A stretch of 64,000 nt of DNA from Pseudobutyrivibrio sp. YE44 (GTDB lineage Bacteria > Bacillota > Clostridia > Lachnospirales > Lachnospiraceae), in the NCBI RefSeq assembly GCF_900104335.1, contig NZ_FMXT01000003.1, positions 1 through 64,000 on the forward strand. The letters are read 5' to 3'. The translations under genes and the position numbers were made by a program. Positions 4,071 to 62,526 of the stretch are shown here, piece by piece (the stretch's first letter is position 1; each line of letters begins with the position of its first letter). The notes under the pieces were generated by a model. It was not told the DNA's origin, made no database searches, and saw only the letters and a program-made list of their open reading frames with translations.

Positions 4071-4153
4071 CTGGTAGGAAACAAGCTCTTAGATTTCTTT
4101 AGCGAATCGTGTTAGATGAGCGGAGAAATACTAAGGCTTGTTGCCGTGACCAG
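4071..4153 (-). repeat. structured intergenic element, copy A
   Basis: An 83-nt imperfect palindrome ending in CTGGT/ACCAG. On the minus strand it reads CAAGC-CTTAG-T-ATTTCT ... AGAAAT-CTAAG-A-GCTTG, a long stem with a single bulged A. The same layout occurs at 13815-13907 and 62433-62526. It lies 13 nt downstream of galM in galM's orientation and after the transketolase terminator. No T tract follows, so it is not a plain terminator. Function unknown. Confidence 0.75.
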
Positions 4154-4166
4154 TGGGTTATAAAAT

Positions 4167-5201
4167 TTATACAAACTTATATATTGTAGTTGAGTGTACT
4201 TTTTCACCAGCGTGTGCTATAGGCTGAGTGAAGCTTGGTACGTTTATTGCATTTGGGAAGAACTGTGACTCAAAGCATACACCGTAGCGCTTGTCATAAG
4301 GGAAATCACCTTTGCCGATGTGTGATGAATCAAGATAGTTGCCTGCATAGAGCTGCACGCCAGGTAAATCAGTGTAAACTTCCATCTTTCTTCCGCTCTC
4401 AGGATCTTCAAGTGTGCAAGATGGCTTGTCTAAAGTGTGATTGTTTAAGCAGTAATTGTGGTCGAAACCACCAGCCCAATTAAGCTGATCATAATCTGCC
4501 TCAGTGTCCTTGATAAGAGACTTTGGAGTAGTGAAATCCATTGGAGTTCCTTTAACTTCACGGCATTCACCATGTGGAATAGACTCTGAATCTGTGTGAG
4601 TATATCTATCAGCATCAATCCAAACAATATGATTCATAACTGAACCAGAGTCATGACCATTCAAATTAAAGTAGCTGTGATTAGTTGGGTTGAAGATTGT
4701 ATCAACATCTGAAACCCCGGAATATTCAAGCTTTATGGCATTGTCATCAGAAAGAGTATATGTGATTGTGATATCCATTTCTCCTGGGAATCCGCACTCC
4801 AAGTCTGCCTTATGACATGTAAATGTGATATGGCTATCATCTACAGATTCAACATCCCAGATACGCTTGTGCATAGGATTGAAACCAGAGTGAAGATTAT
4901 TCTTTCCATCATTAGCATCAAGCTTATATTCAACACCGTTAAGAGTGAACTTAGAATCACCGATACGATTGCCGTTAGGGCAGATGCAACATCCGAAACC
5001 AGGACTATTTACAAAGTAATCCTCAATTTTCTCATATCCTAAAACAACGTCTGAAAGGATACCATCCTTGTCTGGAACCCAAAGCTCCAGAAGGTTACAT
5101 CCATAATTCATGATTTTAGCCTGCATACCGTTTTTGTTTACGAGAGTGTAGGCGATAATGTCTTCGTTATTAGCAGTTACGCCAATTTTTTCTTTTTCCA
5201 C
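4167..5201 (-). CDS. galM: aldose 1-epimerase (galactose mutarotase)
   Basis: Interconverts alpha and beta anomers of aldohexoses such as galactose or glucose; cytosolic, 344 residues. Start chosen at a GTG preceded six bases upstream by GGGAGG; the open frame extends 38 codons further without a ribosome binding site. Family signatures seen are NPTNHSYFNLNGH (with the catalytic-type His), AGGFDHNYCL and, near the end, VCFESQFFPNAIN, whose Glu is the expected general base. It is a single gene convergent with transketolase, with its own promoter. Substrate preference cannot be read from the sequence. Confidence 0.93.
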   Translation of the reverse strand: MEKEKIGVTANNEDIIAYTLVNKNGMQAKIMNYGCNLLELWVPDKDGILSDVVLGYEKIEDYFVNSPGFGCCICPNGNRIGDSKFTLNGVEYKLDANDGKNNLHSGFNPMHKRIWDVESVDDSHITFTCHKADLECGFPGEMDITITYTLSDDNAIKLEYSGVSDVDTIFNPTNHSYFNLNGHDSGSVMNHIVWIDADRYTHTDSESIPHGECREVKGTPMDFTTPKSLIKDTEADYDQLNWAGGFDHNYCLNNHTLDKPSCTLEDPESGRKMEVYTDLPGVQLYAGNYLDSSHIGKGDFPYDKRYGVCFESQFFPNAINVPSFTQPIAHAGEKVHSTTIYKFV

Positions 5202-5272
5202 GATAAACCTCCCTAATAGATATAATAATACGCCCCAAAAATAAATAGTTTGGGACTTTAAACCTAAGAAAT

Positions 5273-5302
5273 ATAATACTTGTCTATACTTGTAAATACA
5301 AG
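5273..5302 (-). promoter_or_regulatory. galM promoter with overlapping palindrome
   Basis: On the minus strand TTGTAT (-35, 5296-5301) and TATTAT (-10, 5273-5278) are 17 bp apart. The -35 box sits inside the palindrome CTTGTAAATACAAG (5289-5302), and a further CTTGT lies at 5279-5283. This looks like a repressor site over the promoter; the regulator is unknown. Confidence 0.55.
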
Positions 5303-5466
5303 AAGTAGAGAACAATTACATAAATTTTCAAATCAAATACGTAAAGGATATGACATTTTTGAGCGGATTATGAATTATTAGAATAAAAAGTGGATAGTAA
5401 TAATGATTATGAAAATTATGGTTGTTACAAGATATGTATATAATTTGAAGATTGTGTGGAGAAAAA

Positions 5467-7737
5467 GTGGCTTGTATTGTAGAGAAAACCCCAAATGTTT
5501 ACAATGAAGTTATGAGTGGAACTGCGCAAACAATTAAGGCGCGAGATAAAAAACTCATGCGCCTGATAAGAATTCAAATATTGCTGCTACTCATTGTTAT
5601 TGCAGGCGTTTCTATTTATTATTTGAGTGGCTATGGAGCGAAGGTTTCCCAGTTAAAAACGGAAGCTTTTACTATAGTGCGGCGTTCTAGTCCTGAAACC
5701 TTTAGACAAATTGAGACAAGCGTTGTCTATGATGACCATGGAGATACTATATCTGTGCTTAAGGGTGAGAAGGATGTCTATTATGTTCCTTTTGAGGAAA
5801 TTCCTACATATGTTACCCAAGCGATTATTTCAATAGAAGATAAAAAGTTTTATCAGCACAATGGTGTTGATTATAAGGCCATAGCTAGAGCTATGTATGC
5901 GATGATTCGAAAGAAGGAAATCACCCAAGGTGGTAGTACCATTACACAGCAGCTAGCCAGAACCATCTTCCTTACAAACGAGAAAACCTGGCAGCGAAAG
6001 GTAGAGGAGATTTATATAGCTTCTGAGATGGAGAAAAAATATTCTAAGGACCAAATCTTAGAATTCTATTTAAATAATATATATTTTGCTAATGGATATT
6101 ACGGTATAAAGGCAGCAGCAAAAGGGTATTTTAGCAAAGATTTGGGAGAGTTGTCTTTATCACAGATATGTTTCCTGCTGGCAATCCCAAATAGTCCTAC
6201 ATATTATGACCCTGTTGCAAATCCGGAGAATACAATAAAAAGACGAAATCTAATCTTGAAGGCCATGTTGGATGACGGCGTAATCAGCAGTTCCACCTAT
6301 AAGAGTGCAATTGCTGAAGAGATAACTCTTACAAGAACAAGTGGAACTAAAAATAATTATGTAGAAACTTATATATACTACTGCGCTACCAGGGCCTTGA
6401 TGGAGGTTAACGGCTTCGAATTTCAAACAGATTTTACTACTGATAAAGGAAAAGCAGGTTACGAGAAGGCTTATGAGGAAGCCTATAATCAATGGAATCA
6501 AAGTTTATTTACATCAGGCTATAGAATTTACACAACTATAGATTTGGATTTGCAGAAGCAGCTACAGGAAGTGATAGATACAAATCTAGAGGAGTTTACA
6601 GATGTGAATGAGGAGGGAATCTATGCCCTTCAGGGAGCAGCTGTAACCATTGATAATAAAACAGGTAAGGTAGTTGCTATTGTAGGAGGTAGAAGCCAAG
6701 AGGTAACAGGATACACTTTAAATAGAGCCTTCCAAAGCTTCAGACAGCCTGGAAGCTCCATTAAACCTCTCATAGTTTATACTCCATCCTTGGAACGAGG
6801 ATACACACCAGAAACAGTAGTAATAGATGAAAAGCTGGAGGAAGGACCTGAAAATGCAGGTGGAGCCTACTCTGGGGAGATTACTTTACGGGAAGCAGTT
6901 GCAAAATCAAAGAACACTATAGCATGGCAACTGTATGAAGAACTAACACCAAAAACGGGAATGGAATACCTGAAGAAAATGGGATTTTCTCATATTGAAA
7001 AGGATGATTATGGAATGGCAGCTTGCCTTGGTGGGTTCACAATAGGCGTGAGTCCGCTTGAAATGGCAAAGGGATACGAAACTCTTTACAACGATGGTTA
7101 TATGAGAAATCCTACTTGCATTGAAAAAATAACTGATGCAAAGGGTGAGGTAATATACGAAAAAGAAGAAGAGGAAATTGAAGTTTATCAAGAAAATGCT
7201 GCACGAACGATGACAGATATGCTACAATCTGTATTGACTGACGGTACAGCTAAGGGTATAAACCTTGGTGAAATGCCGGCCTGTGGCAAAACAGGCACAA
7301 CAAATAGTAATAGAGACGGATGGTTTGTTGGATACACCAGCTACTACACCACCAGTGTGTGGGTTGGATATGATCTTCCAAAGCAGGTGCCAGGGCTTAC
7401 TGGCTCATCATATCCTGCAAAGATATGGCAGGAATACATGCTGAAAGCCCATGAAGGCCTTACTCCTGTTCCATTTAAAAAGCCGATAGAATATATTGGC
7501 ACAGAGGAGCAACAGGAGGAAGTTGAAGACCTTGAAGAGGGCGACGAGGAAGAGCTAGAGGACGAAGATTATGGGGTCTTCGACGAGGAAAACCCAGGTG
7601 AAGAAGTTGAGGAGGAACCACAGGAGGAGCAACCATCCTACAGAGTTATTACGCAAACCTTCGATGGAACCTCGGTTCCAGCGGGAGCAATACCTGATAA
7701 TGCAACAGATATTGAAATTACTACCACAACAGAATAG
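5467..7737 (+). CDS. class A penicillin-binding protein (glycosyltransferase/transpeptidase)
   Basis: Bifunctional peptidoglycan synthase, 756 residues from a GTG preceded by GGAGAAAAA (a TTG five codons upstream is the alternative). A single membrane segment spans about residues 34-55. The GT51 domain follows: SIEDKKFYQHNGVD with the catalytic Glu near 124, then QGGSTITQQLARTIFL and EFYLNNIYF. The transpeptidase domain has SSIK (catalytic Ser 430), SKN (481) and KTGT (608). After about residue 680 comes a very acidic Glu-rich tail ending in a short threonine-rich segment, presumably disordered outside the cell. The length fits PBP1a/PonA. A glucokinase gene follows 24 nt later and probably shares the transcript. 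Confidence 0.95.
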   Translation: MACIVEKTPNVYNEVMSGTAQTIKARDKKLMRLIRIQILLLLIVIAGVSIYYLSGYGAKVSQLKTEAFTIVRRSSPETFRQIETSVVYDDHGDTISVLKGEKDVYYVPFEEIPTYVTQAIISIEDKKFYQHNGVDYKAIARAMYAMIRKKEITQGGSTITQQLARTIFLTNEKTWQRKVEEIYIASEMEKKYSKDQILEFYLNNIYFANGYYGIKAAAKGYFSKDLGELSLSQICFLLAIPNSPTYYDPVANPENTIKRRNLILKAMLDDGVISSSTYKSAIAEEITLTRTSGTKNNYVETYIYYCATRALMEVNGFEFQTDFTTDKGKAGYEKAYEEAYNQWNQSLFTSGYRIYTTIDLDLQKQLQEVIDTNLEEFTDVNEEGIYALQGAAVTIDNKTGKVVAIVGGRSQEVTGYTLNRAFQSFRQPGSSIKPLIVYTPSLERGYTPETVVIDEKLEEGPENAGGAYSGEITLREAVAKSKNTIAWQLYEELTPKTGMEYLKKMGFSHIEKDDYGMAACLGGFTIGVSPLEMAKGYETLYNDGYMRNPTCIEKITDAKGEVIYEKEEEEIEVYQENAARTMTDMLQSVLTDGTAKGINLGEMPACGKTGTTNSNRDGWFVGYTSYYTTSVWVGYDLPKQVPGLTGSSYPAKIWQEYMLKAHEGLTPVPFKKPIEYIGTEEQQEEVEDLEEGDEEELEDEDYGVFDEENPGEEVEEEPQEEQPSYRVITQTFDGTSVPAGAIPDNATDIEITTTTE

Positions 7738-7761
7738 GAATGTGAAAGGGAGAGTTTTAAA

Positions 7762-8700
7762 ATGGCAAAGTATGGATTTGGCCTTGATTTAGGCGGAACA
7801 ACTTGCAAATGTGGTTTGTTTACCACAGAAGGAGAGCTTCTCGACAAGTGGGAAGTTCCAACAGATACTTCTAACGGAGGTGTTAATATTCTTAAGAATT
7901 TAGCACAGGCTGTTAGAGATAAAATGTCAGAGAAGAACATCGCTGATGAGGATATTTGGGGCGTTGGAATCGGTATTCCAGGACCAGTATCTGAGGATGG
8001 TGTTGTTAATCGTTGTGTAAACCTTGGATGGGGTGTATTCAACGTTGAAAAAGAATTTTCAGAGTGCCTTGGTGGTCTTAAGGTTAAGGCTGGTAACGAT
8101 GCAAACGTTGCAGCTCTTGGCGAGGCTTGGATGGGCGCAGCTAAAGAATATTCTAGCTCTGTAATGGTTACACTTGGTACTGGTGTTGGCGGCGGTGTTA
8201 TCATCAATGACGATATCATCAGCGGTTCAGCTGGTGCAGCAGGAGAGATTGGTCATATCAGAGTTAATTACACAGAGGAAATCTCTTGTGGATGTGGAAA
8301 TCAGGGATGTCTTGAGCAGTATTGCTCAGCTACTGGTATCGCTCGTCTTGCAAAGATTCGTCTTGCTCAGAACGAGGATGCAAGCTCACTTAGAACAGTA
8401 GAGACTCTTGATGCCAAGGCAGTATTTGACGAGGCTAAGAAGGGTGACGTTGTTGCTAAGGAAGTTGTTAAGAGAGCATGTGAGTACCTTGCACAGGGCT
8501 TACAGGTTATTTCATGCGTTGTAAACCCAGAGGCTTTCGTTATCGGCGGTGGTGTTTCTAAGGCAGGACAGTACCTTATCGATGAAGTAGAGTACAGATT
8601 TAATCAGATTGCCTTCCACGGCTGCAAGAACACAAAAATTACTCTTGCAACACTTGGAAATGATGCAGGAATCTATGGAGCTATGAAGCTCATTCTTTAA
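7762..8700 (+). CDS. glcK: ROK-family glucokinase
   Basis: ATP-dependent glucose kinase of the ROK family, 312 residues, cytosolic. The phosphate-binding GLDLGGTTCKCG motif lies near the N terminus and GTGVGGGVI in the second phosphate loop. The ROK zinc motif CGCGNQGC is at residues 176-183, followed by LEQYCS. No DNA-binding helix-turn-helix precedes the kinase domain, so this is a kinase rather than a NagC/XylR-type repressor. A GGGAGAG site precedes the ATG. N-acetylmannosamine or fructose kinases share the fold, but the length and motifs fit GlcK best. Confidence 0.88.
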   Translation: MAKYGFGLDLGGTTCKCGLFTTEGELLDKWEVPTDTSNGGVNILKNLAQAVRDKMSEKNIADEDIWGVGIGIPGPVSEDGVVNRCVNLGWGVFNVEKEFSECLGGLKVKAGNDANVAALGEAWMGAAKEYSSSVMVTLGTGVGGGVIINDDIISGSAGAAGEIGHIRVNYTEEISCGCGNQGCLEQYCSATGIARLAKIRLAQNEDASSLRTVETLDAKAVFDEAKKGDVVAKEVVKRACEYLAQGLQVISCVVNPEAFVIGGGVSKAGQYLIDEVEYRFNQIAFHGCKNTKITLATLGNDAGIYGAMKLIL

Positions 8701-8725
8701 TAGAAAACAGGAAGTTTGAACAATA

Positions 8726-8762
8726 AAAGAGCCAAGCTAGTTAATAGCTTGGCTCTTTATTT
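8726..8762. terminator. bidirectional terminator between glcK and the TetR gene
   Basis: A perfect 14-bp stem AAAGAGCCAAGCTA/TAGCTTGGCTCTTT with a short TTAA loop. It is flanked by an A-rich left side and CTTTAT on the right, so it can work for both convergent genes. Confidence 0.88.
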
Positions 8763-8791
8763 ACATATGTGGTTGAGCACAATTACATTGT

Positions 8792-9361
8792 TCAAGCTTT
8801 TTTAGATGCACTCAAAATACCAGAGTAGCCACTTTCTACAATCTTAGAAGCCTGCTCTGTAAGAATATCAAATGGAATCTCCTTGCCGCTCTTTAACCAG
8901 TCTCTATAAATAAAGGTAATAGAGATTGTATATGAACGTACGATTGATGGATAATCTGTGCGCTCAAAGAATCTTGAGAAGGATGGACTTCTAAGAACTC
9001 CTTCTGTAACAGATTCATAGAAGAATGAATAATGCTCATCACAAAGAAGCTTCTGCTGAACCTCGTTACAAGACTCTAGGTACAGGTAGAAATTCTTAAT
9101 ACATCCTGCTAAATCGAAATCCTCTGCATTTTTTCCGATGTGATCGAGGATATCAGAAACAATCTCCTCCTCAATCTCTGAAACAAAATCATCCAAAGAT
9201 GAAAAATGAAGATAAAATGTTTTTCTGTTAATACCTGCCCTTTCAGTAAGCTCAGTAATAGAAATCTCATTATAATTCTTCTCTAAAACGAGTTCGAAGA
9301 AAGCTCTTCTAATGGAATTGATAGTTCTCCTAACTCTTAAATCTTTACTTCTTTCTCTCAT
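8792..9361 (-). CDS. TetR/AcrR-family transcriptional regulator
   Basis: 189-residue regulator with an N-terminal helix-turn-helix (residues about 14-60: RRAFFELVLEKNYNEISITELTERAGINRKTFYLHFSSLDDF), the classic TetR pattern including the FYxHF end. The C-terminal two thirds, the ligand-binding part, resembles TetR_C proteins of Firmicutes but gives no ligand. AAAGGAGCACG precedes the ATG. It is divergent from a MarR-ABC exporter operon with about 285 bp between starts, so it may control that operon or itself. Confidence 0.88.
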   Translation of the reverse strand: MRERSKDLRVRRTINSIRRAFFELVLEKNYNEISITELTERAGINRKTFYLHFSSLDDFVSEIEEEIVSDILDHIGKNAEDFDLAGCIKNFYLYLESCNEVQQKLLCDEHYSFFYESVTEGVLRSPSFSRFFERTDYPSIVRSYTISITFIYRDWLKSGKEIPFDILTEQASKIVESGYSGILSASKKA

Positions 9362-9444
9362 AAGACGTGCTCCTTTTTAATTATTTTTTCCCCAAAAAAT
9401 ATTTATCTGAAGTCAACAATTGAGTTCTATCTAGTTCATTGTCT

Positions 9445-9453
9445 ACTATACCA
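9445..9453 (-). promoter_or_regulatory. extended -10 promoter for the TetR gene
   Basis: On the minus strand TGG-TATAGT forms an extended -10 element (TGN before a near-consensus hexamer). No good -35 box is seen at 17 bp, which fits the extended -10 class. It predicts a leader of roughly 80 nt. Confidence 0.45.
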
Positions 9454-9503
9454 CGGAAAAAAGCCCTAGTGGAATTTTTAATAGAAAATTTACATTTTTT
9501 TTG

Positions 9504-9532
9504 TTGCTTGGACACAATTTGGGGTGTATAAT
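9504..9532 (+). promoter_or_regulatory. promoter of the marR-ABC exporter operon
   Basis: TTGCTT (9504-9509) and a perfect TATAAT (9527-9532) are separated by 17 bp. The predicted start site, around 9539, lies immediately before the palindromes at 9541-9584. Confidence 0.7.
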
Positions 9533-9540
9533 GCGAATTA

Positions 9541-9584
9541 GTTCGAAGGCGAACTATTCGGAATCGGACAATCCGAGGTCGAAC
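9541..9584. promoter_or_regulatory. nested palindromes, probable operator of the MarR operon
   Basis: GTTCG-AAGG-CGAAC (9541-9554) is followed by a TCGGA/TCCGA repeat centred near 9570. GTTCGA at 9541-9546 and TCGAAC at 9579-9584 form an outer pair. The cluster covers about +2 to +45 of the predicted transcript, a place where a bound repressor would block elongation. MarR proteins normally bind such inverted repeats near their own promoter; the divergent TetR protein is the other candidate. Confidence 0.6.
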
Positions 9585-9646
9585 AAATCTATATAAATAG
9601 TCCCAAAAAGAGGGATTTTTCAAGAAAAATTAAGGAAAGGAGAGAA

Positions 9647-10129
9647 ATGGTGCAGAGAGAATTTGATGATAAAATACACTTAGGCTTTCTATTTGATTGT
9701 GCTTCTCGAGAAATAAGAAATGCCGTTAGTCGTGGTGTTATAGACACAAGTCAGGGTCAGTGCACCATGAAGCATGGTTGGCTATTAGGATATTTGGAAC
9801 GCCAGGAAGGTCCTATCTTCCAGAAGGATTTGGAAAAGGTCTTTCATTTCCCTAAGTCATCCTTGGCCGATATGATTCAATATCTGGAAAAGGCCGGATA
9901 TATTGAAAAGGTTTCTGTTGATAGCGATGCGAGAAAAAAGCAGATTGTTGTCACAGAAGAGGGGCGTAAATTTACGGCATTTGCTGAAGCTCAGATAATG
10001 GAAGTAGACGACTACATCACTCAAGGCATTCCACAGGAACAAATTGAGATGTTGTTGGACGTGCTAGAGAAGCTTAGAAAAAATGCAGCAGAATATAAAT
10101 CATATGTAAAGCTGCAGAAGGAGGAATAA
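9647..10129 (+). CDS. MarR-family transcriptional regulator
   Basis: 160-residue winged-helix regulator. The middle holds the MarR fold: LLGYLERQEGPIFQKDLEKVFHFPKSSLADMIQYLEKAGYIEKVSVDSDARKKQIVVTEEGR, with the recognition helix followed by the DxDxRxK wing. The N and C termini form dimerisation helices. The ATG follows AAGGAAAGGAGAG. It heads an operon with two ABC exporter halves, starting 3 nt before the first. Such MarR genes usually repress the exporter until a drug-like ligand binds; the ligand here is unknown. Confidence 0.92.
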   Translation: MVQREFDDKIHLGFLFDCASREIRNAVSRGVIDTSQGQCTMKHGWLLGYLERQEGPIFQKDLEKVFHFPKSSLADMIQYLEKAGYIEKVSVDSDARKKQIVVTEEGRKFTAFAEAQIMEVDDYITQGIPQEQIEMLLDVLEKLRKNAAEYKSYVKLQKEE

Positions 10130-10132
10130 AAT

Positions 10133-11896
10133 TTGGTTAAAAGAATTTTACAGGAAATTAAGGAATATAAGCTTTCAGCCATAATAACTCCTGTTTTTAT
10201 GATTCTTGAGGTTGCAATGGAAATGATTATTCCACTATTGATTGCTGACCTTGTAGATAAGGGTATAGAAGCTGGAAACATGAAAGAAATCTATCAGATT
10301 GGCGGACAGATGCTTATATGTGCATTCATTGGTCTTTTTGGTGGTATTATGGGTGCCGTTTACGGAAGTAAGGCATCTGCCGGCTTGGCAAAGAATCTTC
10401 GAAAGAAGATGTTTGAGAACATTCAGACCTTCTCTTTTGAAAACATTGATAAGTATTCTACCGCAGGTCTTGTAACACGTCTTACTACAGACGTTACAAA
10501 TGTACAGAATGCATTTATCATGATTCTTAGAATGGGCTTCAGAGCTCCAGTTACAGTAGCAGTTGCAATGATTCTTTCTTTCAAGATCAACGCAAAGCTT
10601 GCTTGTGTTTTCCTTGGTGCGATGTTTGTAATCCTTGGATTTATGGCATTTGTACTTACAAAGACACGTCCATTATTCGAAGCAATGCTCAAGAAATACG
10701 ATGATTTGAATGCGTCAGTGCAGGAGAATGTTACTGGTATCCGTGTTGTAAAGGCTTATGTTCGTGAAGCATACGAAAAAACAAAGTTTAAAAACGGAAG
10801 TAGTGCAATCTATAAGGCAGCCACAACAGCTGAAAAGATGATAGCCTTCACAATGCCTGTTAACACTATAGTTATTTACACCAGCATTATACTTATTAGC
10901 TGGTTTGGTGCAAAGTTTATCGTTATTGATCAGACTCTTACAACAGGTGAATTGGTATCCTTCTTCTCATACTGTATGAACATCCTTATGTCATTGATGT
11001 TCTTCGCTATGATTTTCATTATGGTTACCATGTCAGTTGCCAGTGCGCAGCGTATCTATGAGGTACTTGAAGAGAAGACAACAATCACAAATGGGCCTGA
11101 CCCAGTATATGAAGTTGCTGATGGTTCTATTGAATTCAAGGATGTTGTATTCGGCTATAATAAGACAGCAGATAGACCTGTACTTGACCATATCAATCTA
11201 AAGATAGAATCGGGAGAAACTATCGGTGTGCTTGGTGGAACTGGTTCAGCAAAGTCTACACTTGTTTCTATGATTTCTCGTCTTTACGATGTAGATGAGG
11301 GCGAGGTAGTTGTAGGAGGAATCAACGTAAAGGACTATGACGTTGAAACTATTAGAAATCAGGTATCTGTTGTGCTTCAGAACAACGTTCTTTTCTCAGG
11401 AACAATAGCTGAGAACCTTCGTTGGGGTGATAAAGAGGCTACTGATGAGGAAGTAAAGCATGCAGCCAAGCTTGCTTGCGCTGACGAATTTATAGAGAAG
11501 TTCCCAGATGGCTACAACACCTTTATTGAGCAGGGTGGAACAAACGTATCTGGTGGACAGCGTCAGAGACTATGTATCGCCAGAGCGCTTCTTAAGAAGC
11601 CAAAGATTCTTATCCTCGATGACTCTACATCTGCAGTAGATACAGCAACAGATGCTAATATCCGCCGCGCCTTTAGGGAAGAAATACCAAATACTACAAA
11701 GCTTATTATTGCACAGCGTATTTCTTCTGTGATGGATGCAGACAGAATCATCGTTATGGATGATGGTAGAGTGAATGATTTCGGAACACATGAGGAACTC
11801 ATGAACAGAAACGAAATTTATAAAGAGATTTTCGAGCAGCAGACAGGCGCCGGCAGCGGTGACTTCGATAAAGTTGAGAAAGGAGGCGAGGACTAA
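10133..11896 (+). CDS. heterodimeric ABC exporter, subunit with degenerate ATPase site
   Basis: Type IV ABC half-exporter, 587 residues: six membrane helices (about 1-300), then a nucleotide-binding domain. Start is a TTG nine bases after AAGGAGG; no better codon is in frame. Walker A is GGTGSAKST (368-376), where Ala replaces the last Gly of GxxGxGK. The signature is VSGGQ. Walker B is ILDD, with Asp 497 in place of the catalytic Glu. This non-catalytic partner pairs with the canonical half that follows, as in BmrC/BmrD and TM287/288. Probable function is drug or metabolite export under MarR control. Its stop overlaps the next ATG by one base (TAATG). Confidence 0.93.
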   Translation: MVKRILQEIKEYKLSAIITPVFMILEVAMEMIIPLLIADLVDKGIEAGNMKEIYQIGGQMLICAFIGLFGGIMGAVYGSKASAGLAKNLRKKMFENIQTFSFENIDKYSTAGLVTRLTTDVTNVQNAFIMILRMGFRAPVTVAVAMILSFKINAKLACVFLGAMFVILGFMAFVLTKTRPLFEAMLKKYDDLNASVQENVTGIRVVKAYVREAYEKTKFKNGSSAIYKAATTAEKMIAFTMPVNTIVIYTSIILISWFGAKFIVIDQTLTTGELVSFFSYCMNILMSLMFFAMIFIMVTMSVASAQRIYEVLEEKTTITNGPDPVYEVADGSIEFKDVVFGYNKTADRPVLDHINLKIESGETIGVLGGTGSAKSTLVSMISRLYDVDEGEVVVGGINVKDYDVETIRNQVSVVLQNNVLFSGTIAENLRWGDKEATDEEVKHAAKLACADEFIEKFPDGYNTFIEQGGTNVSGGQRQRLCIARALLKKPKILILDDSTSAVDTATDANIRRAFREEIPNTTKLIIAQRISSVMDADRIIVMDDGRVNDFGTHEELMNRNEIYKEIFEQQTGAGSGDFDKVEKGGED

Positions 11897-13806
11897 TGCC
11901 TAGAGGACCACAACCAGGACAGATGCAAAAGCTCACAGCAGAGCAAAAGGCCAAAAGGCGAGGAGTTCTTGGCCGACTAGTTAAATACATTGGAAGCAGA
12001 TATGCTATCCAGCTTTTAGTTGTTATTGTTTGTATATTCCTTGCAGTTATTTGTAATGCAAAGGGAACAGCTTTTATGCAGGAATTGATTGATTCCTACA
12101 TTATCCCTATGGTGGAAAGTGGAAGCAAGGATTTCGGACCACTTGCAGCGGCAATTGGCCAGCTGATAGTGTTCTATGCAATCGGTATAGTAGCAACCTT
12201 CCTTTACAACTGGATTATGATTTTCGTAGCTCAGGGAACCCTTAGGGATTTGAGAGACGAGATGTTTGAGCAGATGGAAAGCCTTCCAATTCGCTATTTT
12301 GATAGTCATGCTCACGGTGATATCATGTCAATTTACACTAACGATATTGATACACTTAGACAGATGATTTCACAGAGCTTCCCACAGATGTTCAACAGTG
12401 CAATCACTATTATTACAGTATTTGTTTACATGTGTATGCTTTCAGCGCCTCTTACAGGTGTGACAATCCTTATGGTTGCTATTATCGTGTTTGCCACAAA
12501 GGTTTTAGCTGGAACTTCAGGAAGATATTTCCGCAAGCAGCAGCAATCCCTTGGTGCCGTAAACGGAAATATTGAGGAAATCATGAAGGGCCAGAAGGTA
12601 GTAAAGGTATTCTGTCATGAAGAAGAGGTAATGGAAAAGTTCAATGAGCTTAACGAAGGCCTTTACGAGAATGCCTACAAAGCTAACCGCCTTGCAAACT
12701 GCCTTGGACCAATCAATGCACAGCTTGGTAATGTTAATTATGTAGTTTGTGCGGTAGTAGGTGGAACCCTTGCTATCAACGGATGGACAGGACTTACCCT
12801 TGGTGCTCTTGTTTCCTTCCTTCAGTTTACTCGATCATTTATTATGCCAATCATGCAGGTGTCACAGCAGTTCCAGTCAATCGTTCTTGCTATGGCTGGT
12901 GCCGAGCGTGTATTCGACCTTATTGATGAGGAGCCAGAAACAGACGAAGGCTATGTAATGCTTGTAAATGCAAAGGATGTGGATGGACAGCCAGTTGAGT
13001 GTGAGGAGCGTACAGGAAAGTGGGCTTGGAAGCACTATCACAAGGCTGAGGGCACAACTACCTACCAGTGGCTTACAGGTGATATTGTTTTCGATGACGT
13101 GGATTTTGCTTACAATCCTGATAAGACAGTACTTCACAATATCAAGCTTTTTGCTACACCTGGACAGAAGATCGCTTTCGTTGGTGCTACAGGTGCAGGA
13201 AAGACCACAATTACAAACCTTATAAATCGTTTCTATGATATCGCTGATGGAAAAATTCGCTACGACGGTATCAACATCAACAAGATTAAGAAGGCGGATT
13301 TGAGACGATCTCTTGGAATCGTTCTTCAGGACACACATCTTTTCACAGGAACAATCGCAGATAACATCCGCTATGGAAAGTTGGATGCCACTGATGAAGA
13401 GGTTATTGCAGCAGCAAAGCTTGCTAACGCAGATAGCTTTATCCATCGTTTGCCAAAGGGTTACGACACAGTAATCACTGGTGATGGTGGAAATCTTTCA
13501 CAGGGACAGAGACAGCTTCTTGCCATTGCAAGAGCAGCTATCGCAGATCCACCAGTGCTTATTCTAGATGAAGCTACATCTTCTATTGATACCAGAACTG
13601 AGAAGATTGTTCAGGATGGTATGGATAAGCTGATGCATGGACGTACAACCTTTGTTATCGCCCATAGACTTTCTACCATTAGAAACTCTGACTGTATCAT
13701 GGTTTTAGACCAGGGACGCATTATTGAGCGAGGCAGTCATGAGGAATTAATTGGTGAAGGTGGAAAGTACTATCAACTATATACTGGGAAAATACAAAAC
13801 GCCTAA
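11896..13806 (+). CDS. heterodimeric ABC exporter, catalytic subunit
   Basis: Partner half-exporter, 636 residues: N-terminal extension, six membrane helices, nucleotide-binding domain. Walker A is GATGAGKTT (430-438), the signature LSQGQ, and Walker B ILDE with the catalytic Glu 559, all canonical. Between membrane and nucleotide domains lies an extra segment of about 45 residues (VNAKDVDGQPVE...KWAWKHYHKAEGTTTYQWLTGD) that comparable clostridial half-exporters also carry. Start codon overlaps the upstream stop, so the two halves are made in equal amounts. Substrate not readable from sequence. Confidence 0.93.
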   Translation: MPRGPQPGQMQKLTAEQKAKRRGVLGRLVKYIGSRYAIQLLVVIVCIFLAVICNAKGTAFMQELIDSYIIPMVESGSKDFGPLAAAIGQLIVFYAIGIVATFLYNWIMIFVAQGTLRDLRDEMFEQMESLPIRYFDSHAHGDIMSIYTNDIDTLRQMISQSFPQMFNSAITIITVFVYMCMLSAPLTGVTILMVAIIVFATKVLAGTSGRYFRKQQQSLGAVNGNIEEIMKGQKVVKVFCHEEEVMEKFNELNEGLYENAYKANRLANCLGPINAQLGNVNYVVCAVVGGTLAINGWTGLTLGALVSFLQFTRSFIMPIMQVSQQFQSIVLAMAGAERVFDLIDEEPETDEGYVMLVNAKDVDGQPVECEERTGKWAWKHYHKAEGTTTYQWLTGDIVFDDVDFAYNPDKTVLHNIKLFATPGQKIAFVGATGAGKTTITNLINRFYDIADGKIRYDGININKIKKADLRRSLGIVLQDTHLFTGTIADNIRYGKLDATDEEVIAAAKLANADSFIHRLPKGYDTVITGDGGNLSQGQRQLLAIARAAIADPPVLILDEATSSIDTRTEKIVQDGMDKLMHGRTTFVIAHRLSTIRNSDCIMVLDQGRIIERGSHEELIGEGGKYYQLYTGKIQNA

Positions 13807-13814
13807 TGTACAAC

Positions 13815-13907
13815 GCTAGTCGGTTACGCCTACAAGCCTTAGGTCTCTCCGCTCAACGTGGAATGTTTCGCTTGAGAGATCTAAGAGCTTGATGGCTACC
13901 GCCTAGC
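13815..13907 (+). repeat. structured intergenic element, copy B
   Basis: 93-nt imperfect palindrome ending in GCTAG/CTAGC, 8 nt after the exporter operon. The stem CAAGC-CTTAG-G-TCTCTC pairs with GAGAGA-T-CTAAG-A-GCTTG. It shares CAAGCCTTAG and CTAAGAGCTTG with copy A, while the inner stem changes from ATTTCT/AGAAAT to TCTCTC/GAGAGA, keeping pairing. A GTTTTTA run follows, so this copy might help terminate transcription. Confidence 0.78.
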
Positions 13908-13927
13908 TGTTTTTATATTACGATTTA

Positions 13928-13936
13928 TGATATAAT
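13928..13936 (+). promoter_or_regulatory. extended -10 promoter for the antitoxin-Fic pair
   Basis: TGA-TATAAT is a perfect extended -10 element. No clear -35 is found. The predicted transcript starts near 13943, giving a leader of about 75 nt before the antitoxin start. Confidence 0.55.
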
Positions 13937-56076: not shown

Positions 56077-56136
56077 TAAAAGGCTTGAGAAAATAATTGG
56101 GGAGGCGGTTACATTAGCCCCAAGGAGGAAGTAATA

Positions 56137-57342
56137 ATGAATAATACTAGATTAAAGTCAGCAGGAATTGCAGCACTTTCAGCTGCTGTTCTTTTCACAG
56201 GATGTGGAAAGCTTGACTCAGATGCAACACTTGTAACAATTAAGAATGGAGACGCTACTGATACCATTAGTCTTGGGTATGCTAATTTCGCTGCTAGATA
56301 TCAGCAGTCAATGTATGACCAGTTTCTTTTAGGTTACTATGGCGAGGATATGTGGAGCCAGGATATGTCAGGAAAGGGCTCAACACTTGAAGAGGAAACA
56401 AAAGACGGAGTTCTTACAGAGCTTGAAGAGCAGTACTTAGCAAAGTGTCATACAAGAGATTATAAGATTAAGCTTTCAGAGGACCAGGAAAAGGCAATCG
56501 ATGAAGCTGCAAAGAAGTTTATGTCTGATAACTCTAAGGAAACCATTGAAGCAATGGGCGCTACAGAGGAATATGTAAAGCAGTATCTTGAGAGCAGAAC
56601 TTACTATACATATGTAAGTAATGCTGCTAAGGAGCAGTTAGGCGCTGACATTACAGAAGATGATTGCTGGATGCGTACCTTCACATACGCGGTGTTTGAA
56701 ACAACTGGAAAGAAGGACGAAGAAGGCAACGTTACTGAGTATACAGAGGATGAGATTGCAAATCTTAAGAAGGATGCTGAGGAATTAGCAGCAGCTAAGG
56801 ATTTCACAGCACAGGCTGAAAAGCTTGGTGTTACAACAACTCCTTATTCATATCTTAAGGGTGAGACAGAGGATTCTACAGTGGATATGAGCATTATCAC
56901 TGCAGCTGAGGCCCTTAAGGAAGGGGAGGTTTCAGCTGTTATCGAAGTTGATGGTGTAGGTTACTACGTACTTAAGCTTGATAAGGATCATGACGAGGAT
57001 GCTTCTACAAACAAGAAGGAAAGCCTTGAGTCAGAAGCCTTTACAAAGCTTATGGATAAGTGGAAAGAGTCAATCACATGGAAGGTTGACGAAGAGCTCT
57101 GGAAAGAAGTTAAGTTTGATACTCTTTTCAAAGCTGTAGAGAAGGAAGAAACTGAAGAGCCAGCTGAAGAGACTACAACAGAAGAGACAACCGAGAAAAA
57201 AACTGAAGAGACAACTTCAGAAGAGTCTACAGAAGCAGAGTCTGAGGAAAAGACTGAAGATAAAACAGAAGAAAAAACTGAGGAGAGCACTGAGGATTCT
57301 GAGCAGACAGAGGATGCAAGTGAAGAATCAGATGCAAATTAA
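56137..57342 (+). CDS. PrsA-like foldase lipoprotein (SurA/PPIase type)
   Basis: 401 residues. Lipoprotein signal with FTGC, lipidated Cys about residue 23. The body follows the PrsA/SurA plan: an N-terminal helical chaperone part (about 45-180) and a region (about 195-295) where a parvulin domain would lie: WMRTFTYAVFETTGKKDEE...FTAQAEKLGVTTTPYSYLKG...MSIITAAEALKEGEVSAVIEVDGVGYYVLKLDK, the last part being the typical parvulin end. The final 65 residues are an extremely Glu/Thr/Ser-rich tail. It probably helps exported proteins fold outside the membrane. GGAGG precedes the ATG. Confidence 0.85.
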   Translation: MNNTRLKSAGIAALSAAVLFTGCGKLDSDATLVTIKNGDATDTISLGYANFAARYQQSMYDQFLLGYYGEDMWSQDMSGKGSTLEEETKDGVLTELEEQYLAKCHTRDYKIKLSEDQEKAIDEAAKKFMSDNSKETIEAMGATEEYVKQYLESRTYYTYVSNAAKEQLGADITEDDCWMRTFTYAVFETTGKKDEEGNVTEYTEDEIANLKKDAEELAAAKDFTAQAEKLGVTTTPYSYLKGETEDSTVDMSIITAAEALKEGEVSAVIEVDGVGYYVLKLDKDHDEDASTNKKESLESEAFTKLMDKWKESITWKVDEELWKEVKFDTLFKAVEKEETEEPAEETTTEETTEKKTEETTSEESTEAESEEKTEDKTEEKTEESTEDSEQTEDASEESDAN

Positions 57343-57345
57343 AAA

Positions 57346-59097
57346 ATGAATTTTATTATTTCCTATGTAAAGAAATATAAATTCAGAGCAATATTAGCCC
57401 CACTTTTCAAAATGTTAGAGGCCATATTTGAGTTATTGGTTCCCCTTGTGATGGCAGCCATCATCAACAAGGGAATCGGAAACTCAGATACCCACTACAT
57501 CCTTGAGATGAGTGGGGTTTTATTGTTTCTGGCTGTAGTTGGACTGGTATTTTCAATAACAGCCCAATACTTTAGCGCCTACGTGGCTGTGCATTCGGCT
57601 GCCGAGATTCGAAGAGATTTGTTTGAAAAGATATTAGGACTGTCTCAAGGTACTAAAGATAGGATTGGTGAAGAGGTGTTAACTACTCGTATCACCAACG
57701 ATATAAATCAGATTCAAAATGCCATAAATATGGTTTTAAGACTGTTTTTGCGCTCGCCATTTATTGTGGCAGGTGCGACAATCATGGCGTTTATCGTGGA
57801 TGTTAAATCCACACTTACTTTTTTGATTGTTGTCGGGCTTTTATCGTTGATTGTGTATTTCATAATGAAATATACACTTCCAAGATACAAAGCTATTGCT
57901 GCTAAGCTTGAAAAAGTTCTTCACGCAACCTCAGAAAATTTGGCTGGTGCCAGAGTTCTTAGGGCCTTCTGTCAAACTGATGAGGAAAAGGCTGGCTTCC
58001 AAGAAAAAACTGCTACTCTGGCTAACATGCAAATTGCTACAGGTAAAATCTCTGCACTTCTGAATCCAGTAACCTATGTTGTGGTAAATATCGGTATTGT
58101 AGGTTTAATCTATGTGGCTATGGGCCGTGTAGATTCGGGTGTTTTAAAGCAGGGTGATGTGGTTGCTCTTGTTAATTATATGGGGCAAATCCTTATTGAA
58201 TTGATTAAGCTTGCAAACCTTATTGTGCTTTTGATGAAAGCGTTTCCTTCTGCTGACCGTGTTCAGGAGATAATGGAAATGAAATCTGATGAGCGTTGCC
58301 AAGAAAAATACGGAGATGGTGAGCTGATTATCGGTGGATCGAAGCCTCTTGGTTCTCTTTCTCTTAAACATGTTTCCTTTAGCTATAATGGGAGCGCTGA
58401 TATGGATCTTGAAGATATTAATCTTGAGATTCCTGCTGGTTCTACTCTTGGTATTATCGGTGGAACTGGCTCTGGAAAGAGCACCTTACTTAAGCTTTTG
58501 AATCATACTTACGAAGCAACATCTGGTGTTGTTGAGTTGAACGGACAGGATGTTCGTAAGATTGATGATAGCACTTTGGCTTGGGACTTTGGAATTGTAC
58601 CTCAGAAGGCAGTTTTGCTTTCAGGAACAATCAGAAGTAACCTTACAATGAAGGAAACAGAAGCATCTGATGATGAAATTATATCAGCACTTAATATCTC
58701 GCAATCGTTGGAATTTGTTTCAACGAAAGAAGGGCAGATTGATGCTACTGTAGTTGCAAAAGGAGCCAACTTCTCAGGTGGACAGCGCCAGAGATTGACC
58801 ATTGCGAGAGCTTTAGTGGGAAGGCCTAAGATATTGATTTTAGACGATTCTGCCAGTGCACTGGACCTTGGAACAGAGGCAAAATTAAAGAAGGCTTTAA
58901 CTCAGTTGAGCTGGAAACCAACTATAATTATCGTTTCACAGCGTGCATCCTCTGTAAAAGGGCTAGATCAGATATTAGTATTGGATGACGGCAAATGTGT
59001 AGGACTTGGAACCCATGAACAGCTTATAGAAAGCTGTGAGACCTACCAGGAGATATATTATTGTCAATATCCTAGAGAGGAGGCAAGCGGTGAATAA
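57346..59097 (+). CDS. second heterodimeric ABC exporter, degenerate-site subunit
   Basis: 583-residue half-exporter with six membrane helices and a nucleotide-binding domain. Walker A is canonical, GGTGSGKST (372-380), the signature FSGGQ, and Walker B ILDD with Asp 501 replacing the catalytic Glu. It pairs with the next gene, whose start overlaps its end. It begins 3 nt after the PrsA-like gene and I see no good ribosome binding site, so it probably depends on translation of prsA. It resembles the exporter at 10133-13806 in design but not closely in sequence. Substrate unknown. Confidence 0.93.
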   Translation: MNFIISYVKKYKFRAILAPLFKMLEAIFELLVPLVMAAIINKGIGNSDTHYILEMSGVLLFLAVVGLVFSITAQYFSAYVAVHSAAEIRRDLFEKILGLSQGTKDRIGEEVLTTRITNDINQIQNAINMVLRLFLRSPFIVAGATIMAFIVDVKSTLTFLIVVGLLSLIVYFIMKYTLPRYKAIAAKLEKVLHATSENLAGARVLRAFCQTDEEKAGFQEKTATLANMQIATGKISALLNPVTYVVVNIGIVGLIYVAMGRVDSGVLKQGDVVALVNYMGQILIELIKLANLIVLLMKAFPSADRVQEIMEMKSDERCQEKYGDGELIIGGSKPLGSLSLKHVSFSYNGSADMDLEDINLEIPAGSTLGIIGGTGSGKSTLLKLLNHTYEATSGVVELNGQDVRKIDDSTLAWDFGIVPQKAVLLSGTIRSNLTMKETEASDDEIISALNISQSLEFVSTKEGQIDATVVAKGANFSGGQRQRLTIARALVGRPKILILDDSASALDLGTEAKLKKALTQLSWKPTIIIVSQRASSVKGLDQILVLDDGKCVGLGTHEQLIESCETYQEIYYCQYPREEASGE

Positions 59098-60826
59098 TAA
59101 GTCTCAATCTAAGATATTAAATCGTATTTTAATGGAATTGCGTGTTTATAGCTTTAATATTATCATTTCTATTTTATGTGCAATGACCACTGTATATTTG
59201 ACTTTACGTATACCAATTCTTACAGGACGAGCTGTGGATTGTATAGTTAAAGCAGGGGAAATAGATTATGATTCCTTAATATCTGTATTAAAGGAAATGA
59301 CCGTTATTGTTTCGTTAACCTTTGTTTCTCAGTGGGTTATGAGTAGAATAAATAACCGTATAACCTACAATATTACAAAGAATCTTAGGGATAGAGCCTT
59401 TGGAAGGCTTCAAAATATGAAGCTTGCAGAGATTGATAGCCATCCTCATGGTGATTATGTCAGCCGAATTGTTTCAGATGCTGACACCTTTGCAGATGGC
59501 CTTTTAATGGGCTTTACTCAGCTTTTTACAGGTGTTCTCACAATCCTTGGAACCATATATTTTATGGTGATGATTTCTTGGAAGATAGCGTTGATTGTCA
59601 TCATTGCCACACCATTATCGTTGTTGTTAGCAAAGTTTATTTCCAGCAGAACCTACTCGTTCTTTGGAAAGCAGGCAAAACTTCGTGGTGCAGAAACTTC
59701 TTATATAGAAGAAATCATCCTCAATAAGAATATTGTTCGCAATATGAATTATGAAGGTCATGCTCTTGATAAGTTTGAAGAAATGAATGATGAGCTTACA
59801 GATGCAGCAATGAAGGCTACCTTTTATTCTTCTATTGTAAATCCAAGCACCAGATTAATTAATAATCTGATATATGCTTCGGTAGGTGTTTTTGGTGGAT
59901 TGATGGCAATCTCCGGAGGCATCACTGTAGGTGGTCTTACCAGCTTTTTGTCATATGCAAGCACCTATGGAAAGCCATTTAATGAAATCTCTGGTGTTGT
60001 TACTGAATTCCAGAATGCCATAGCTTGTGCAGGTCGTCTTTTTGAGATGATTGATGCAGAGGTTGAGGTTAACGAGGGGCAGGAGAGTATAGATGGCGCA
60101 AGAGGAGCTATTGAATTTAAAGATGTAAGTTTCTCCTATGATAAGAGCAAAAAGCTTATAGAACACCTGAATCTAAAGGTTGAGCCAGGACAGAGAGTTG
60201 CAATTGTTGGTCCTACAGGAGCAGGCAAAAGTACAATCATTAATCTCCTAATGAGATTTTATGATATTGATGGTGGTCAGATTCTTATAGATGGCAAAAA
60301 TATAAAAGACATTGAGCTTGATAATCTGAGAAGCAACTTTGGAATGGTGCTTCAAGAAACCTGGCTGAAGAATGCTACTGTTAAGGAGAATCTTAAGATG
60401 GCTAGTCCGAATGCTACAGACGATGAAATTGTAGCAGCGGCAAAGGCAACACATGCTCACAGCTTTATAAAGCGCATGCCTTATGGCTATGACACTGTTA
60501 TCTCCGGAGATAATGGATCCTTGTCACAGGGACAAATGCAGCTACTTTGTATCACCAGGGTAATGCTAAATATCCCACCAATGCTTATTTTGGACGAGGC
60601 AACCTCATCAATTGATACACGAACTGAACAGAAAATTCAGTCAGCTTTCAATAAAATGATGAAAGGTAGAACTACTTTCGTTGTAGCTCACAGACTTTCC
60701 ACTATCCGCGAGGCGGACGTGATTTTATTCGTCAAAGATGGACAGATTGTGGAGCAGGGTAATCACTCAGAATTGTTGCATAAAGACGGATATTATGCTA
60801 AATTATATCGGAGTCAAATCGAATAG
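59090..60826 (+). CDS. second heterodimeric ABC exporter, catalytic subunit
   Basis: 578 residues from a GTG preceded by GAGAGGAGG; the frame is open 54 bp upstream into the partner gene, but that start has no such site. Six membrane helices, then Walker A GPTGAGKST (374-382), signature LSQGQ and Walker B ILDE with the catalytic Glu 503. The coding overlap with the partner is 8 bp, consistent with coupled synthesis. No extra domain is present, unlike the 636-residue subunit of the first exporter. Confidence 0.93.
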   Translation: MNNKSQSKILNRILMELRVYSFNIIISILCAMTTVYLTLRIPILTGRAVDCIVKAGEIDYDSLISVLKEMTVIVSLTFVSQWVMSRINNRITYNITKNLRDRAFGRLQNMKLAEIDSHPHGDYVSRIVSDADTFADGLLMGFTQLFTGVLTILGTIYFMVMISWKIALIVIIATPLSLLLAKFISSRTYSFFGKQAKLRGAETSYIEEIILNKNIVRNMNYEGHALDKFEEMNDELTDAAMKATFYSSIVNPSTRLINNLIYASVGVFGGLMAISGGITVGGLTSFLSYASTYGKPFNEISGVVTEFQNAIACAGRLFEMIDAEVEVNEGQESIDGARGAIEFKDVSFSYDKSKKLIEHLNLKVEPGQRVAIVGPTGAGKSTIINLLMRFYDIDGGQILIDGKNIKDIELDNLRSNFGMVLQETWLKNATVKENLKMASPNATDDEIVAAAKATHAHSFIKRMPYGYDTVISGDNGSLSQGQMQLLCITRVMLNIPPMLILDEATSSIDTRTEQKIQSAFNKMMKGRTTFVVAHRLSTIREADVILFVKDGQIVEQGNHSELLHKDGYYAKLYRSQIE

Positions 60827-60880
60827 GGATAACTATGCCCTTTTTTAGATTTTAGAGAGAATTAGATTGTAGGAGACAAT

Positions 60881-62176
60881 ATGGAGCAGTATGTGATTAA
60901 GGGCGGCACTGCGCTTTCTGGAGAGGTAGAAATCAGTGGTGCCAAGAACGCAGCTCTCGGAATTTTGGCTGGCGCTATTATGGCCAACGAGACTGTAACA
61001 ATTGAAAATCTGCCAAATGTAAAAGATATAAATGTACTTATCGGAGCAATTGAAGACATTGGCGCTTCAGTTAACCGTGTAGATGAGCACACAGTTGAAA
61101 TTAATGGTTCAAGCATATCTAGACTTTCAGTAGATTATGAATACATTAAAAAGATTCGTGCTTCTTATTATTTAATGGGAGCACTTCTTGGAAAATATAA
61201 GAGCGCAGAGGTTGCACTTCCAGGTGGATGCCTTATTGGTTCAAGACCAATCGACTTACATGTTAAGGGTCTTAAGGCTCTTGGCGCTAATGTAGATGTA
61301 TCTTATGGTCTTTGGTCAGCTAGAGCAGACAGACTCGCAGGTAGCCATATTTATCTTGATAAGGTATCAGTAGGTGCCACTATCAATATTATGCTTGCAG
61401 CTGTTCTTGCAGAGGGCAAGACTACCATTGAAAATGCAGCCAAGGAGCCACACGTAGTTGATGTTGCTTCTTTCCTTAACAGTATGGGAGCTAATATCCG
61501 TGGTGCAGGTACTGATGTGATTCGTATCGTCGGTGTTCCAGCGCTTCACGGCACAACTTACGCAGTTATTCCAGATCAGATTGAGGCTGGTACATATATG
61601 TGCGCAGCTGCAGCTACTCACGGTGATGTTCTTGTTAAGAACGTTATCCCTAAGCATTTGGAGGCTACATCTGCAAAGCTTATTGAAGCGGGTTGTCTCA
61701 TAGAGGAATATGATGATGCAGTTCGTGTAGTTGCAAAGGGTCGTAAGCTTACAAAGACACATGTTACTACCTTACCATACCCTGGATTCCCTACAGATAT
61801 GCAGCCTGAAATTACTGCAGTTCTTGGAATCGCTGATGGTACAAGTACAGTTACAGAGTCTATCTTTGAGAATCGTTTCAAATATGTTGATGAGCTTGCT
61901 CGCATGGGCGCAAACATTAAGGTTGAAAGCACAGTTGCAATCGTAACAGGTGTTGAAAGATATACTGGAGCTCAGGTTTGTGCACCAGATCTTCGTGCAG
62001 GTGCTGCTCTTATTATCGCAGGCCTTGCTGCAGATGGATTTACAGTTATTGATGATATTAAGTATATCCAGCGTGGTTATGAGGATATCATCGGAAAGCT
62101 TTCAAAGCTTGGTGCTGATATTGCAGAAGTTGATTCTGAGCACGATTTACAAAAGTTCAAGCTCAAGGTTTCTTAG
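60881..62176 (+). CDS. murA: UDP-N-acetylglucosamine 1-carboxyvinyltransferase
   Basis: First committed step of peptidoglycan synthesis, adding enolpyruvate from PEP to UDP-GlcNAc; cytosolic, 431 residues. Seen are GGTALSGEVEISGAKNAAL, LPGGCLIGSRPIDLH with the active-site Cys 117 (the residue alkylated by fosfomycin), PGFPTDMQPEI and DLRAGAALIIAGLAA. The Cys is kept, so fosfomycin sensitivity would be expected from this enzyme alone. GGAGACAAT precedes the ATG. 54 nt after the exporter operon with no clear terminator between. Firmicutes often have two murA genes; which one this is cannot be said. Confidence 0.96.
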   Translation: MEQYVIKGGTALSGEVEISGAKNAALGILAGAIMANETVTIENLPNVKDINVLIGAIEDIGASVNRVDEHTVEINGSSISRLSVDYEYIKKIRASYYLMGALLGKYKSAEVALPGGCLIGSRPIDLHVKGLKALGANVDVSYGLWSARADRLAGSHIYLDKVSVGATINIMLAAVLAEGKTTIENAAKEPHVVDVASFLNSMGANIRGAGTDVIRIVGVPALHGTTYAVIPDQIEAGTYMCAAAATHGDVLVKNVIPKHLEATSAKLIEAGCLIEEYDDAVRVVAKGRKLTKTHVTTLPYPGFPTDMQPEITAVLGIADGTSTVTESIFENRFKYVDELARMGANIKVESTVAIVTGVERYTGAQVCAPDLRAGAALIIAGLAADGFTVIDDIKYIQRGYEDIIGKLSKLGADIAEVDSEHDLQKFKLKVS

Positions 62177-62203
62177 TTTTTACGACTTAGTAAGGTGGAA
62201 TAA

Positions 62204-62425
62204 ATGGATATTACTGAAAAGATTGAAGTAGATGACTGCCCAATTTGTGGCGGTGCAGGTCTTATTGAAGAGGAAGACCATGGTTTTTATGTAGCATGTC
62301 TCGATTGTGGCAGCTACACAGGTACAGTTAGTTACAAGACTGAAGATGGAAAGCAGGAAGCAGCTGAGAAAGCTGCAATGCTTTGGAATACCGGCAAAGT
62401 AATAAACTCCGCTCCAGGTGAATAA
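62204..62425 (+). CDS. small zinc-ribbon protein, Lar-like
   Basis: 73 residues. CPICGGAGLIEEEDHGFYVACLDCGSYTGTVSYKTEDGKQEAAEKAAMLWNTGK shows two CxxC pairs (12-15 and 32-35) and ends with the A..xWN pattern of restriction-alleviation (Lar) proteins and related phage zinc ribbons. In Lar the protein modulates type I restriction; whether this one does is open, and no restriction genes are in the window. AAGGTGG precedes the ATG. 27 nt after murA, followed by a structured element and a terminator. Confidence 0.75.
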   Translation: MDITEKIEVDDCPICGGAGLIEEEDHGFYVACLDCGSYTGTVSYKTEDGKQEAAEKAAMLWNTGKVINSAPGE

Positions 62426-62432
62426 ATACTCC

Positions 62433-62526
62433 GCTTCTAGTTACGCTCTCAAGCCTGAATATTACTCCGGAGAGCTGAAGAAAGCTCTCATTGAGTAACA
62501 CTCAGAGCTAGATAGCTACTAGAAGC
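62433..62526 (+). repeat. structured intergenic element, copy C
   Basis: 94-nt palindrome ending in GCTTCTAG/CTAGAAGC. It shares AGTTACGC, CAAGCCT and AGAGCT.GAT.GCTA with copy B. Inside, AGC-CTGA pairs with TCAG-A-GCT, again with one bulged A, then ATTACTC with GAGTAA, and the tip is a hairpin GAGAGCT/AGCTCTC. It lies 7 nt after the Lar-like gene and 10 nt before a separate terminator, so termination is not its main role here. Confidence 0.75.

Follow-up and report, generated by a model that had tools for sequence, protein, structure and literature searches.

Small structured repeats that are interspersed through the genome in many copies are known as the BOX, RUP and SPRITE elements of Streptococcus pneumoniae; their mobiliser is uncertain, and SPRITEs resemble terminators (PMC3049150). 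The repeat family of Pseudobutyrivibrio presented here likewise has many dispersed, structured, intergenic copies, a narrow taxonomic range and variable sites. Further likenesses are the restriction to a handful of related species plus one isolated, distantly related set, the enrichment in convergent gaps and a likely influence on the shape of co-transcribed RNA. Compared by description, not by sequence, it differs in that about half of its copies lie between two genes opposing the element, that copies nest inside hairpins, and that compensation extends along the entire stem.

GTAG/CGTC REPs and REPINs share with the new family imperfect extragenic palindromes with bulges, a GTAG beside the palindrome, sub-families with complementary stem changes, and inverted dimers (PMC3733652, PMC3116915 and PMC8266576). 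REPs are, according to the same sources, 20–40 bp long with a terminal GTAG or CGTC, whereas the present element measures about 85–100 nt and its GTAG is internal, so that neither the length nor the terminal tag of a GTAG REP or REPIN was found; a genome-resident RAYT (PF01797) was missing from several copy-rich genomes. In the accessible text of PMC3733652 the strings 'firmicutes', 'clostrid' and 'butyrivibrio' occur 0 times. MITEs such as Correia/NEMIS and ERIC (PMC10969869) are also short, non-coding and dispersed, with inverted termini and the potential to form RNA hairpins, but the termini of the present element differ between copies and there are no family-wide terminal inverted repeats. 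Among the titles listed in literature searches, which covered papers outside subscription, none dealt with a Pseudobutyrivibrio repeat of this type.

IS200/IS605 ends and integron attC sites are single-stranded DNA hairpin substrates with extrahelical bases, and attC sites have R''/R' core sites (RYYYAAC..GTTRRRY), occur in arrays and are used by an integrase. The element resembles both in its imperfect hairpin, invariant bulge and strand asymmetry, but differs in having no arrays, no consistent Y1 enzyme and no attC core motif that was recognised by eye.

How small structured repeats can spread when the genome has no transposase of its own for them has yet to be settled for elements of the BOX and REP type. 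We consider it probable that the present family consists of non-autonomous, probably selfish, mobile hairpin repeats of Pseudobutyrivibrio, a genus of rumen bacteria; these repeats are REP/REPIN/BOX/RUP-like in kind and form a separate family. It is previously unlisted in Rfam and in searchable papers; the kind is known, and the insertion traces are unusual.

Three copies in the analysed window

The window, i.e. the whole stretch of 64,000 nt that was analysed, contains three copies (Table 1). Their bit scores are not independent, as all three were among the 18 sequences that trained the covariance model. They are present where the earlier note had placed them and fold as it described, with an outer stem, a CAAGCC..GAGCTTG core that has a bulged A, and three inner stems that differ in sequence yet pair. 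For copies 1, 2 and 3, folding against dinucleotide shuffles gave z values of -7.60, -6.64 and -6.81, and 0 of 200 shuffles were as good.

Table 1. Element copies and neighbouring features in the window.
Feature	Position	Strand	Remarks
tRNA cluster	2–448	+	five genes
Transketolase, C-terminal part	3071–4009	+	convergent with the aldose 1-epimerase gene
Element copy 1	4065–4160	-	covariance model, 96.2 bits
Aldose 1-epimerase	4167–5315	-	
ABC transporter gene	11896–13806	+	
Element copy 2	13813–13908	+	covariance model, 95.7 bits
Single ORF of 3589 codons	15044–25813	+	
Element copy 3	62430–62528	+	covariance model, 72.0 bits
Separate intrinsic-terminator-like hairpin	62536–62561	+	8 nt past copy 3; 11 pairs, then TTTTTT

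Copy 1 sits between two convergent genes. On the minus strand beside it, AAGCCAAC..GTTGGCTT followed by T's was terminator-like by eye. Copy 2 starts 6 nt past the stop of the ABC transporter gene, and CTAGCTGTTTTTATATT comes next; no terminator was called at this copy by a simple terminator scan, because the scan allows loops of 3–8 nt only. An orthologous copy in genome G003 has both inner and outer stems compensated. Copy 3 begins a few nt past the stop of a short putative ORF on the plus strand, read from the sequence, which ends at about position 62426.

At the gathering threshold, Rfam matched five tRNAs alone in the whole window, and at E up to 10 the surroundings of copy 2 gave a single miRNA match (E 8.2), in line with the earlier note, which had put forward no named family for this pattern.

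Copies in the genome and in related genomes

A 20-base core pattern with 13 fixed bases matched the genome 17 times and its reversed control 0 times, so the matches are not due to chance. The pattern missed copy 2, which was joined to the 17 sequences for a covariance model of 18 copies; their consensus has 30 pairs, and in 15 of these a double change occurs at least once. In the own genome (3.24 Mb) the model gave 106 matches, of which 101 copies were retained: four matches that echoed a palindrome on the opposite strand were dropped, as was a weak one of 63 nt (E 0.11). The count of 101 is a floor, because scoring covered 150 of the 1423 first-look candidates, and three more copies came to light later.

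Of 41 genomes, 23 matched the model: the own genome plus 22 of the 24 further members of the genus. The 16 genomes of other families gave 0 matches. Both genus genomes without copies (G007 and G020) are incomplete. Copy numbers in the other genomes of the genus ranged from 0 to at least 101, and a fuller search of G003 gave 139. A pattern scan of named GTDB contigs returned 55 stretches, of which 53 bear the title Pseudobutyrivibrio and the other 2 that of Butyrivibrio fibrisolvens 16/4. Among 392 sampled genomes of the order, 11 matched: nine of the genus (own included) and two of g96, a genus in another family, in which bulges, stems and internal loops follow the same order and the stem sequences differ. 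For the inner domain, another model was made on the complementary strand with 42 copies from the genus and four from g96; it matched 12 of the 392, i.e. the same nine and three g96 genomes (8, 4 and 3 matches), one of which (G250) had contributed nothing to the model. Carriage by phage, virus or plasmid was also considered and was dropped, as the exact pattern had no match in viral contigs and blastn with one copy found none in plasmids and phages.

Covariation and strand asymmetry

In 104 distinct rows, 94.9% of cells were paired (73.6% in shuffles), double-change cells numbered 605 (151 in shuffles) and the covariation score was 0.528 (0.141 in shuffles), figures that are biased upwards in that the alignment was fitted to the structure of the model and the copies are related. 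On any of five covariation measures, 0 of 500 shuffles reached the real value, and sliding the partner columns by 1–3 lowered pairing to 26–51%. The outer stem paired in 97.4% of cells with a sequence that differs from copy to copy, and the bulged A was kept in 102 of the 104 rows genome-wide.

The earlier note had called for a genome search and for covariation statistics; it withstood the first with about a hundred copies and the second against both the shuffle and the column-slide controls. Its argument for selection on the folded form is supported by the covariation in the wider sense of selection or copying that preserves the fold.

Non-Watson-Crick cells on the strand on which the element was first read (the reader's strand) were A.C in 93 cases, G.T in 12 and other in 63 among the 104 own rows, and 50, 9 and 47, respectively, in 108 rows from other genomes. 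Per pair (n = 30), A.C exceeded G.T in 18 and the reverse held in 3 for the own rows, with 15 and 4 for other genomes. Since an A.C mispair corresponds to G.T on the opposite strand, wobble seems to be tolerated on the complementary strand, and the folding form looks to be the complement of the reader's strand. The excess looks like a property of the element and not of local transcription, because it is present whatever the neighbouring genes do (A.C:G.T of 52:6 between two opposing genes, 20:1 between convergent genes and 13:3 between two genes running with the element). It is partly inherited in subfamilies, and biased mutation could account for some of it; DNA hairpins, too, tolerate G.T. 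By eye, the inner loop of the complementary strand (AAGC-GA..GA-GCGG) could pair as tandem sheared G.A, in a k-turn-like manner.

In four copies of the own genome (C23:161728, C23:264209, C14:82473 and C15:82618) the tip was swapped for other sequence, TCATCGTTTTCACTATACTCTC and relatives, as if tips were exchangeable.

Turnover between species and traces of insertion

Four loci were compared in relatives by eye. At the locus of copy 1, with 21 other genomes resolved and seven loci that did not resolve, a full copy lay at or beside the spot in 3 of 21 (G017 at the same place; G021 and G411 beside the same gene, together with an opposite one); G009 had an opposite copy, G010 and G002 had half copies, and 15 had none visible. 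At the locus of copy 2, one of 13 resolved genomes (G003) had a copy and at least 8 showed a plain hairpin and T run instead, and at that of copy 3 a copy was found in 0 of 8. At locus C16:103209 of the own genome, 24 others were resolved and three did not resolve; full copies were present in 3 of 24 (G003, G015 and G012), and G017 had half a copy. A wider set of 121 comparisons between own copies and loci in relatives included, among those listed, copies that were shared, had diverged or were missing. One of the possibilities raised earlier, a small mobile palindromic repeat, gains support from the copy number, the spread in the genus and these locus differences between species.

Two more palindromic repeat families, of the GCGCGAGCA..TGCGGGAGC and GGGGGAAGG..CCCTCATC types, fill the same gaps in other species (loci L184, L185, L193, L321, L322 and L191, L194, L196, L201, L336, L337, L341, L343), and at L192 and L200 tandem arrays of half elements (CCGCYRGTTACGGC..) lie beside full copies.

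Nesting of one copy within another was seen several times; the simple rule used to flag it, which misses some cases and over-calls others, marked 9 of 101. Complementarity of the flanks outside the element scored at least 20 in 42 of 101 copies, with 8.6 expected from cross-paired flanks of different copies, and in 37 of 92 (8.1 expected) when the flagged copies were removed. Either elements enter existing hairpins or insertion creates one.

At C16:103209 the flanks of G012 and G019 are 96.7 and 95.7% identical over 300 nt, and 45 nt lie between the anchors in G019 and 148 nt in G012. The extra 103 nt in G012 consist of the element together with 21 nt that repeat the left flank in inverted form, and the outer arms there agree in 30 of 31 positions. 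No direct target duplication was seen by eye in this one pair. We infer an insertion in G012 from these features, including the direction of change. The inverted arm could instead be older than the insertion, because the related G008 and G409, which are without the element, have a long hairpin at this spot; loss in G019 could be another explanation.

At C16:304605, the right arm in the own genome mirrors the conserved coding end of the left-hand gene, with a score of 37 to which the coding part contributes 20. In the 18 relatives scored, the value was 14–34 and that of the coding part alone 9–16; three of them had strong inverted repeats (30, 34 and 34) with a coding part of 14–15. This locus also allows the reverse history, i.e. 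loss or an older hairpin. At least some outer-stem compensation may stem from flank DNA copied into an inverted repeat, as in the G012/G019 pair, and not from stepwise selection, and perfectly compensated stems need not imply selection on RNA, because flank copying yields them at once.

Lone arms of at least 17 bits on the reader's strand comprised 3 own and 4 other 5' arms, and 3 own and 0 other 3' arms. When these were read, the three 3' arms and one 5' arm looked coding and one 5' arm was a full copy with another tip, which left 5:0; among the remaining five is one that continues into a different repeat family and is perhaps interrupted. The bias is only suggestive as a sign of polarity. 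Scans for stray arms with a loose pattern and with a low-threshold weight matrix were too noisy.

In the reading that we favour, mobile hairpin repeats, an enzyme or a replication process would handle the complementary single strand (RNA or ssDNA), and new copies would land mainly in short intergenic gaps and existing hairpins (terminators and their own kin). Adjacent DNA would sometimes be copied inverted on the far side, giving a new, locus-specific and perfectly paired outer stem.

A bacterial SINE-like retroposon is a rather unlikely further reading. A short structured RNA from the complement of the reader's strand would be reverse-transcribed into intergenic targets from its 3' end, and the new hairpin strand would fold back and copy the target flank, so that each copy would gain a new and perfectly paired outer stem; with such a start, stray arms would keep the 3' end. 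This RNA-templated reading is a hypothesis that agrees with the asymmetry between the strands and with the inverted copies of flank; the mobiliser search covered Y1_Tnp. Template switching of a replication fork could leave the same traces. If either were true, the hairpin of the element itself would prime inverted duplication of its target. The copy-rich genomes without Y1, the excess of hairpins within hairpins and the inverted flank copy give a concrete hypothesis of a self-priming hairpin, which is testable in a culturable genus.

Placement among genes

Relative to the reader's strand, and with genes called by a simple ORF rule that may be wrong in single cases, 55 of 101 copies had both neighbouring genes against them, 21 lay between convergent genes, 20 had both genes with them, 4 were in divergent gaps, which are thus rare relative to convergent ones, and 1 was at a contig end. 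The gene on the 5' side had the direction of the element in 41 copies and the opposite direction in 60. A position just downstream of a gene and in its orientation, as claimed earlier, therefore holds for 3 of 3 copies in the window but fails as a family rule, and a gene-oriented 3' UTR element was rejected as the general case on the same count. The related suggestion of a pure 3' UTR stabiliser is unlikely, because the 55 copies lie between two genes opposing the reader's strand, often just before a motif like a ribosome-binding site.

It is improbable that the family is a host cis-regulatory RNA (a leader, riboswitch-like or protein-binding hairpin) spread over the operons that it regulates. 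Such an RNA would suit the invariant internal loops and bulged A, the asymmetry of wobble on the strand which, in 55 of 101 copies, is the sense strand of both flanking genes, the related architecture in g96 and the pair compensated in place at the locus of copy 2. A ribosome-binding-like motif was also present within 20 nt in 35 of the 60 copies with an opposed 5' neighbour and in 3 of the 41 others (counts taken without a shuffle control). However, the content of the loci varies between species, copies are nested or form inverted pairs, and the same A.C excess is seen in the 20 copies with the other orientation and in the 21 convergent ones, where a leader would make no sense. The functions of flanking genes were looked at for five genes of the window.

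That the repeat owes its abundance mainly to a role in intrinsic termination or in stabilising 3' ends seems more improbable still. A run of at least five T's came next in 14 of 41 copies after a co-directional gene (no shuffle control), and the gap of copy 2 holds a simple terminator in other species. The same run followed only 3 of the 60 copies with an opposed 5' neighbour, copy 3 is followed by a separate terminator of its own, and the explanation accounts for some placements but not for the spread.

Under the favoured reading of mobile hairpin repeats, the best interpretation of the sequence is that copies may be locally usable as terminators or leader hairpins. An inserted element would be co-transcribed and, with a T tract after it, could replace the terminator of the gene, as seems to be the case for copy 2; between two genes it would form an untranslated hairpin just upstream of the ribosome-binding site.

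Mobiliser and orientation of copies

The presence of the element does not track Y1 (IS200/RAYT-type) transposases. Y1_Tnp (PF01797), the only enzyme family searched, was found in 10 of 29 genus genomes, and no mobiliser was found by this search. That the copies are GTAG-type REPs moved by a RAYT (a Y1/IS200-type transposase) is very unlikely. In favour of it, the complementary strand carries GTAG (77 of 101) or GTAA (22 of 101; neither in 2) next to the inner palindrome, neighbouring copies that form inverted pairs do so in a single sense (9 pairs tail-to-tail on the reader's strand and 0 in the reverse arrangement, with 2 further pairs in tandem), and copies are extragenic with few in divergent gaps. 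Against it, the tag is internal, within the outer stem, a REP has only about half the length of the element, the own genome has PF01797 as three fragments at contig ends only, and PF01797 is absent from the copy-rich G012 (71 copies), G013 (91) and G022 (43). A resident PF01797 enzyme as mobiliser is largely refuted by this absence.

The strand of the copies in G012 changes in broad blocks and the GC skew in G003 (16 samples) flips several times, giving no clear replication-strand bias. On contig C16 of the own genome, copies switch from mostly minus to mostly plus near position 405,000, which may follow gene direction or replication.
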